The notes below the pieces were generated by a model. The model saw only the letters and a list, made by a program, of their open reading frames with translations, ran no database searches and had not been told where the DNA came from. A program made the position numbers and the translations under genes. This document shows positions 31,472 through 31,777 of a stretch of 45,859 nt of DNA, piece after piece. Numbering within the stretch: position 1 is the first letter of the stretch; every line of letters begins with the position of its first letter. The stretch is from Bacteroidales bacterium (lineage in GTDB: Bacteria > Bacteroidota > Bacteroidia > Bacteroidales > PXBB01). The stretch spans positions 1 to 45,859 of the forward strand of contig PXBB01000013.1 of the NCBI GenBank assembly GCA_003565735.1, written 5' to 3'.

Positions 31472-31546
31472 GATTCGATTGTGTTTTTTCTAACTTAATT
31501 GATAAAAAAAGATGAAGCAAAAATAAAATTTAATATTAATATACTA

Positions 31547-31563
31547 TATTCAACTGTTGAATA
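31547..31563. repeat. 17-base perfect palindrome, operator-like
   Basis: TATTCAACTGTTGAATA is a perfect palindrome around its central T. It lies 22 bases upstream of the minus-strand -7 box at 31518-31525, at the position where a repressor or activator of the nuoE-like operon would bind. Confidence 0.6.
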
Positions 31564-31616
31564 ATTATTAAAATGGATGATTTACTTATGCTATCTGTTT
31601 TATTTCCAGTTAAAAA

Positions 31617-31659
31617 ATAAGTAAATAACTTAATTTTATTATAAGTAAATAACTTAATT
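31617..31659. repeat. Twin 19-base repeats, operator-like
   Basis: ATAAGTAAATAACTTAATT occurs at 31617-31635 and again, identical, at 31641-31659 (24 bases start to start). Each copy holds the palindrome TAAGT-AAATA-ACTTA. The second copy abuts the TTG elements of the gdhA promoter, so a regulator bound there would affect gdhA and perhaps the divergent operon. Confidence 0.7.
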
Positions 31660-31660
31660 G

Positions 31661-31690
31661 TTGTTTTATTAAAATAAAAAATTACATTTG
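31661..31690 (+). promoter_or_regulatory. gdhA promoter
   Basis: TTG at 31661-31663, 19 bases, TACATTTG at 31683-31690: a good match to the Bacteroidota consensus. A second -7-like TACTTTTG at 31723-31730 may be an alternative start. Confidence 0.65.
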
Positions 31691-31777
31691 CAAAGTAATC
31701 ATGTTTTTGAAAAAAATAATGTTACTTTTGGAATTTCATAATATAAACATTTTATAAACGTATTAAAAATTTTTGCT

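Follow-up and report, generated by a model that had tools for sequence, protein, structure and literature searches.

The window analysed here, a stretch of 45,859 nucleotides from a Bacteroidales contig, carries on its forward strand a clade-I gdhA gene (31778 to 33115) for a member of the hexameric NADP-type glutamate dehydrogenase family (NF010633) and, divergent from it on the reverse strand, three genes for the subunits of a redox complex. These encode a NuoE-like protein of 177 amino acids, recognized by a domain match (30938 to 31471, StnA-like), a NuoF/HydB-like protein of 606 amino acids with a C-terminal ferredoxin domain (29134 to 30954, StnB-like; 8oh5_B, E = 1.8e-264), and a GltD-NuoG fusion of 1230 amino acids (25403 to 29095, StnC-like; 9bov_A, 8oh5_C, and 9n5u_A). 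The best PDB relatives of the two large subunits are 9bov, 8oh5, and 9n5u. PDB entry 8OH5 represents the Sporomusa Stn transhydrogenase, in which a GltD-NuoG fusion of 1172 amino acids serves as StnC; the enzyme uses NADH together with reduced ferredoxin to reduce NADP+ (PMC10482914). The window operon has the same three subunits with the same domains, its fusion being slightly longer than the expected length of about 1170 residues. Subunit domains, best PDB matches, and the published complex together make the operon StnABC-like by sequence, and it matches an electron-bifurcating transhydrogenase of this type. It differs from the Sporomusa system in belonging to another phylum, in its gene order, and in lying beside gdhA, and its activity is a predicted one. 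A gene for a ferritin-like protein (24930 to 25382), kept in many relatives of the operon, lies directly 3' of the GltD-NuoG gene. The window also holds a second electron-transfer cluster (11872 to 19336), which includes a NuoE-NuoF fusion of 798 amino acids, a multi-ferredoxin/FlpD/2Fe-2S/FAD protein of 1290 amino acids, and a DAO-family oxidoreductase, and genes for arsenite efflux (ACR3) and arsenate reductase (33234 to 34686) located 3' of gdhA on the opposite strand.

The gap between gdhA and the NuoE-like gene (31472 to 31777) has a G+C content of 17% and contains two identical 19-mers, ATAAGTAAATAACTTAATT, at 31617 to 31635 and 31641 to 31659, spaced 24 bp apart. Both include the dyad core TAAGTAAATAACTTA (31618 to 31632 and 31642 to 31656), which follows the pattern TAAGT-N5-ACTTA. 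This pattern occurs twice in the window versus 0.06 occurrences expected, and no shuffled sequence had two; of 2000 dinucleotide-shuffled versions of the intergenic region, one (0.05%) had a direct repeat of 18 bases inside 60 bp. The repeats are real and beyond chance, as the first-pass annotation had held when it described two identical 19-base copies with a palindromic core, 24 bases apart. Its statement that they abut the −33 element of gdhA also stands: copy 2 ends directly before the −33-like sequence GTTG (31660 to 31663), which is separated by 19 bp from a perfect Bacteroidetes −7 box of the TAnnTTTG type, TACATTTG (31683 to 31690), and together they form the candidate gdhA promoter on the forward strand. 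An alternative −7 box for gdhA is TACTTTTG (31723 to 31730, forward strand), and the candidate −7 box of the divergent operon is TATTTTTG (31518 to 31525, reverse strand). The centre of the last site lies 41 bp before the end of the −7 box in the window and mostly 53 to 98 bp before it at other loci. A position upstream of the predicted −7 boxes would suit an activator, in so far as these candidate boxes are correct. The first-pass annotation had also pointed to a palindrome of 17 bases near the divergent promoter. This element, TATTCAACTGTTGAATA (31547 to 31563), is present and perfect, but its frequency is at chance level: when this region of 17% G+C was shuffled, 8.7% of the sequences contained an 8-1-8 palindrome and 41% contained some palindrome whose arms were 8 bp long. 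The core of the element was absent from all 94 nuoE loci checked. We therefore rejected it as an operator.

We looked for related sites upstream of gdhA in other members of the order Bacteroidales, as judged by named records, using upstream regions gathered from named-record loci and from further genomes, many of whose assemblies are incomplete. The gdhA genes of the order fall into two clades, I, to which the window gene belongs, and II. The sites form a family with the 15-bp dyad TAMGT-N5-ACKTA, usually in tandem every 22 to 23 bp. Upstream of clade-II genes there were 13 exact sites in 62 loci versus 0.15 in shuffles, and tandem pairs 20 to 25 bp apart, most commonly 22 bp, were present in 21 of 113 gdhA upstream regions; 30 shuffled sets had none. 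A scan of 964 kb found motif pairs almost exclusively at gdhA junctions; one degenerate pair, which precedes the gene for a T9SS protein (L044), was set aside as probable chance. Across 149 genomes, TAMGTRWWWYACKTA was no commoner than a reversed control, which makes the enrichment positional rather than global and rules out the motif as a frequent genomic element. We then scored sites with a matrix trained on gdhA-II sites only, from which both the window and the gdhA-II array of the host genome were excluded. Enrichment at gdhA-II is thus descriptive, and the tests at amtB, at the host gdhA-II, and in the window were made on held-out sites. The window pair took the top two places in the whole window (12.9 bits for copy 1 and 11.4 bits for copy 2), and background non-coding DNA had two matches of at least 11.4 bits in 52 kb. 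At −160 and −136 relative to the gdhA start codon, the pair has the family's arrangement of tandem sites 20 to 25 bp apart and about 120 to 220 bp upstream of that codon. Both window copies are AT-rich, are spaced 24 rather than 22 bp apart, and score lower than most other sites.

The host genome contains a second gdhA gene, of clade II, on contig C60, and this gene is preceded by four copies at −203, −180, −158, and −135, 22 to 23 bp apart. In genome G002, of the same family and the closest sampled relative with a clade-I gdhA, a degenerate pair with 24-bp spacing lies at −164 and −140, and a tandem pair lies upstream of the clade-II gene. The pair at the same position in this relative and the sites of the same kind at many gdhA junctions bear out the operator-like character that had been ascribed to the repeats. 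Among the other clade-I genes, G002 (weak) and G120 (a single site) were the only two with a comparable site, and the site was absent from the loci of the closest gdhA homologues (82% GdhA), in which gdhA and nuoE are co-directional; conservation in these closest loci was accordingly rejected. The first-pass annotation had suggested looking for the repeats at other promoters of the genome, which we did by pattern and model searches. The exact pattern TAAGT-N5-ACTTA was at no further host promoter, its four other copies all lying inside open reading frames, which excludes a host-wide regulon of exact sites, but the degenerate array at the second gdhA emerged. A tandem-model scan of the host ranked that array first and gave three places with E ≤ 10, two of them the gdhA arrays (window, E = 1.9); because the model included the second gdhA array, only the rank of the window is independent. 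The third place (C144) was discarded as it lies inside an open reading frame with a MauE/DoxX domain.

Junctions of gdhA with stn genes that bear an array come in three gene orders. In the first, that of the window, the stn operon and gdhA-I are divergent. In the second, gdhA-II is divergent from a gene for a protein with a PPDK domain, which is followed by nuoE-nuoF-gltD; eleven listed loci of this order have the site (L092, L094, L095, L100, L101, L106, L111, L115, L116, L121, and L244). In the third, gdhA-II leads into nuoE-nuoF-gltD (L086, L089, L245, and L342); L089 belongs to Perlabentimonas gracilis M08_MB, a relative that is in culture. The PPDK ATP-binding-domain protein has 1150 to 1412 amino acids with receiver-like and GAF-like regions (L091:2103-5987 and relatives, and on host contig C60, G000, L340:4001-7516); its gene is either divergent from gdhA-II or first in the nuoE operon, and the protein is possibly a signalling partner. 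In G002 (L212:3431-8154), gdhA-I faces pntAB, which encodes a proton-translocating transhydrogenase and hence another NADPH source, instead of stnABC.

Sites of the family also precede other genes of ammonium assimilation. Intergenic occurrences of the order-wide pattern led us to a recurrent locus with genes for a HisKA_3 kinase and a REC-GerE response regulator, the site, and then genes for a porin-like protein (some of the Gcw_chp family) and AmtB. With the matrix described above, we scored 24 gaps (5.9 kb) that separate a related regulator gene from a co-directional next gene. Ten of them had a site that reached 12.5 bits or more, compared with 1 per 52 kb in background non-coding DNA, and the genes beyond the site-bearing gaps, among those scanned, encode the porin-like protein and AmtB. 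Overall, a site adjoins the regulator gene in at least 10 genomes. Genome G056 has arrays before glnK-amtB, before gltBD, and at gdhA, and array matches were at or beside amtB genes in G014, G034, G041, and G095, with the G034 match in the gap that separates an AmtB-family gene from a divergent one. The host assembly (84% complete) contained no ammonium transporter (PF00909), and the host regulator is not beside amtB. Since the motif stands in front of amtB, glnK-amtB, and gltBD as well as next to a NarL-type system, its common theme seems to be ammonium assimilation and not redox balance alone. The earlier proposal of a regulator that balances glutamate dehydrogenase with the redox complex is thus supported in part, by the arrays at gdhA/stn junctions in three gene orders, but is too narrow for a motif found at amtB, glnK-amtB, and gltBD and next to this two-component system.

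The host orthologue of these regulators is a NarL/LuxR-type response regulator on contig C46 (25711 to 26373), 53 to 55% identical to the amtB-linked proteins. It has receiver and GerE domains, its best PDB match is NarL, and the gene just before it encodes a HisKA_3 kinase of 710 amino acids with a match to a Cache-like sensor. Its two domains and the adjoining kinase gene qualify it as a candidate binder of the NarL/FixJ type. It groups with the corresponding proteins of G001 and G002, genomes of the same taxonomic family. The regulator was commoner in genomes with a gdhA site (Fisher p 0.001 to 0.013, in a test that ignores phylogeny), and several regulator-bearing genomes had no site at gdhA. 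In motif-bearing genomes, including G056, G015, and G131, the recognition helix of the regulator is close to RTVESHKNHIMQKL with few changes; in the host paralogues on C75 and C166 it differs. The kinase and regulator genes of G002 come after pntAB, which is divergent from gdhA-I. In G131 (L093:983-1684), a regulator with the shared helix is encoded between gdhA-II and its divergent partner gene, and the regulators of G015, G131, and G056 (L359, L360, L351, and L093) have kept the helix next to a degenerate receiver without the phospho-acceptor region; those of G015 and G131 adjoin gdhA-II.

Taken as sequence evidence, the motif pair appears to be a conserved switch site of genes for ammonium uptake and fixation and points to a nitrogen control system. 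We consider it likely, with room for doubt, that the repeats are tandem binding sites of a Bacteroidales nitrogen-assimilation regulator, for which the C46 response regulator with its HisKA_3 kinase is the best candidate. We infer binding, activation rather than repression, a nitrogen signal, and control of stnABC: the predicted regulator probably activates gdhA and possibly also controls stnABC. One dimer would occupy each 15-bp dyad, and dyads in tandem, separated by at least two helical turns, would place neighbouring dimers upstream of the −33 element of gdhA. When the kinase signals, gdhA would most likely be activated and the divergent stnABC operon may be switched as well; the Stn transhydrogenase could supply the NADPH used by glutamate dehydrogenase.

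The alternative that survives best is a genuine nitrogen-assimilation operator bound by a different protein, a NarL paralogue or an unrelated factor, with the response regulator being merely a neighbour of amtB. It gains from several genomes in which the regulator is away from all sites, and from G056, where strong arrays at gltBD, glnK-amtB, and gdhA accompany a regulator that is only 33% identical and has a degenerate receiver. However, that same G056 protein falls in one group with the regulators encoded next to gdhA, the recognition helix is kept across motif-bearing genomes, and site and regulator gene are so often adjacent that we regard another binder as unlikely, if still worth considering. 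Redox control of the divergent StnABC operon as the chief role of the array, with gdhA as a bystander or secondary target, would explain the shared junctions, but the gdhA-II arrays of the host and G002 are flanked by gdhA-II on one side and the PPDK-domain gene on the other, and no stn gene adjoins them, the non-redox genes amtB, glnK, and gltBD also have sites, and the closest gdhA homologues lead straight into nuoE without one, which leaves this reading improbable. A recent functionless tandem duplication in AT-rich DNA, which the low G+C content and the identity of the copies over 19 bases might suggest, is more improbable still given the degenerate pair at matching distance and spacing in G002, the four-copy array at the second gdhA, and conservation of the motif across the order.

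The proposed NarL-type regulator resembles NarL, VraR, and DevR of the NarL/FixJ family in its receiver and GerE domains, its HisKA_3 partner, and its dyad operators, which are often multiple in that family. NarL-type inverted heptamers read TACYNMT with a 2-bp gap; the 15-bp dyad described here differs, and the targets belong to ammonium assimilation, not nitrate respiration. Genes of the amtB, glnK, gltBD, and gdhA kind are controlled by NtrC, GlnR, NtcA, and AmtR. The target set suggested here is of the same kind, but the candidate regulator is of a non-homologous or distantly related type and the operator is another one. The NtcA site is GTA-N8-TAC; the core TAAGTAAATAACTTA contains no such sequence, and its dyad gives GTA-N3-TAC. 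In Prevotella ruminicola 23, a species of the Bacteroidales, glnK, amtB, gltBD, and dapF are clustered, as are the same neighbours in G056. Transcript levels there change strongly with ammonium, those of amtB, glnK, gltBD, and gdhA rising when it is non-limiting; the passages found name no regulator or operator (PMC5552732). The signal direction known from enteric bacteria should therefore not be assumed. In the open-access literature we found no named nitrogen-assimilation regulator of Bacteroidales and no description of such a control system.

A wider proposal, which we offer tentatively and with less confidence than the binding-site reading itself, is that a lineage-specific NarL-type system acting through tandem TAMGT-N5-ACKTA arrays ties gdhA, amtB, glnK, and gltBD to StnABC and so would switch the fixation of ammonium together with the supply of NADPH. 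The operator defined here, the gene of its candidate regulator, and the list of targets make nitrogen control in Bacteroidales a directly testable question. They would also link the fixation of ammonium to an enzyme that bifurcates electrons and produces NADPH, in anaerobes dominant in guts and sediments.
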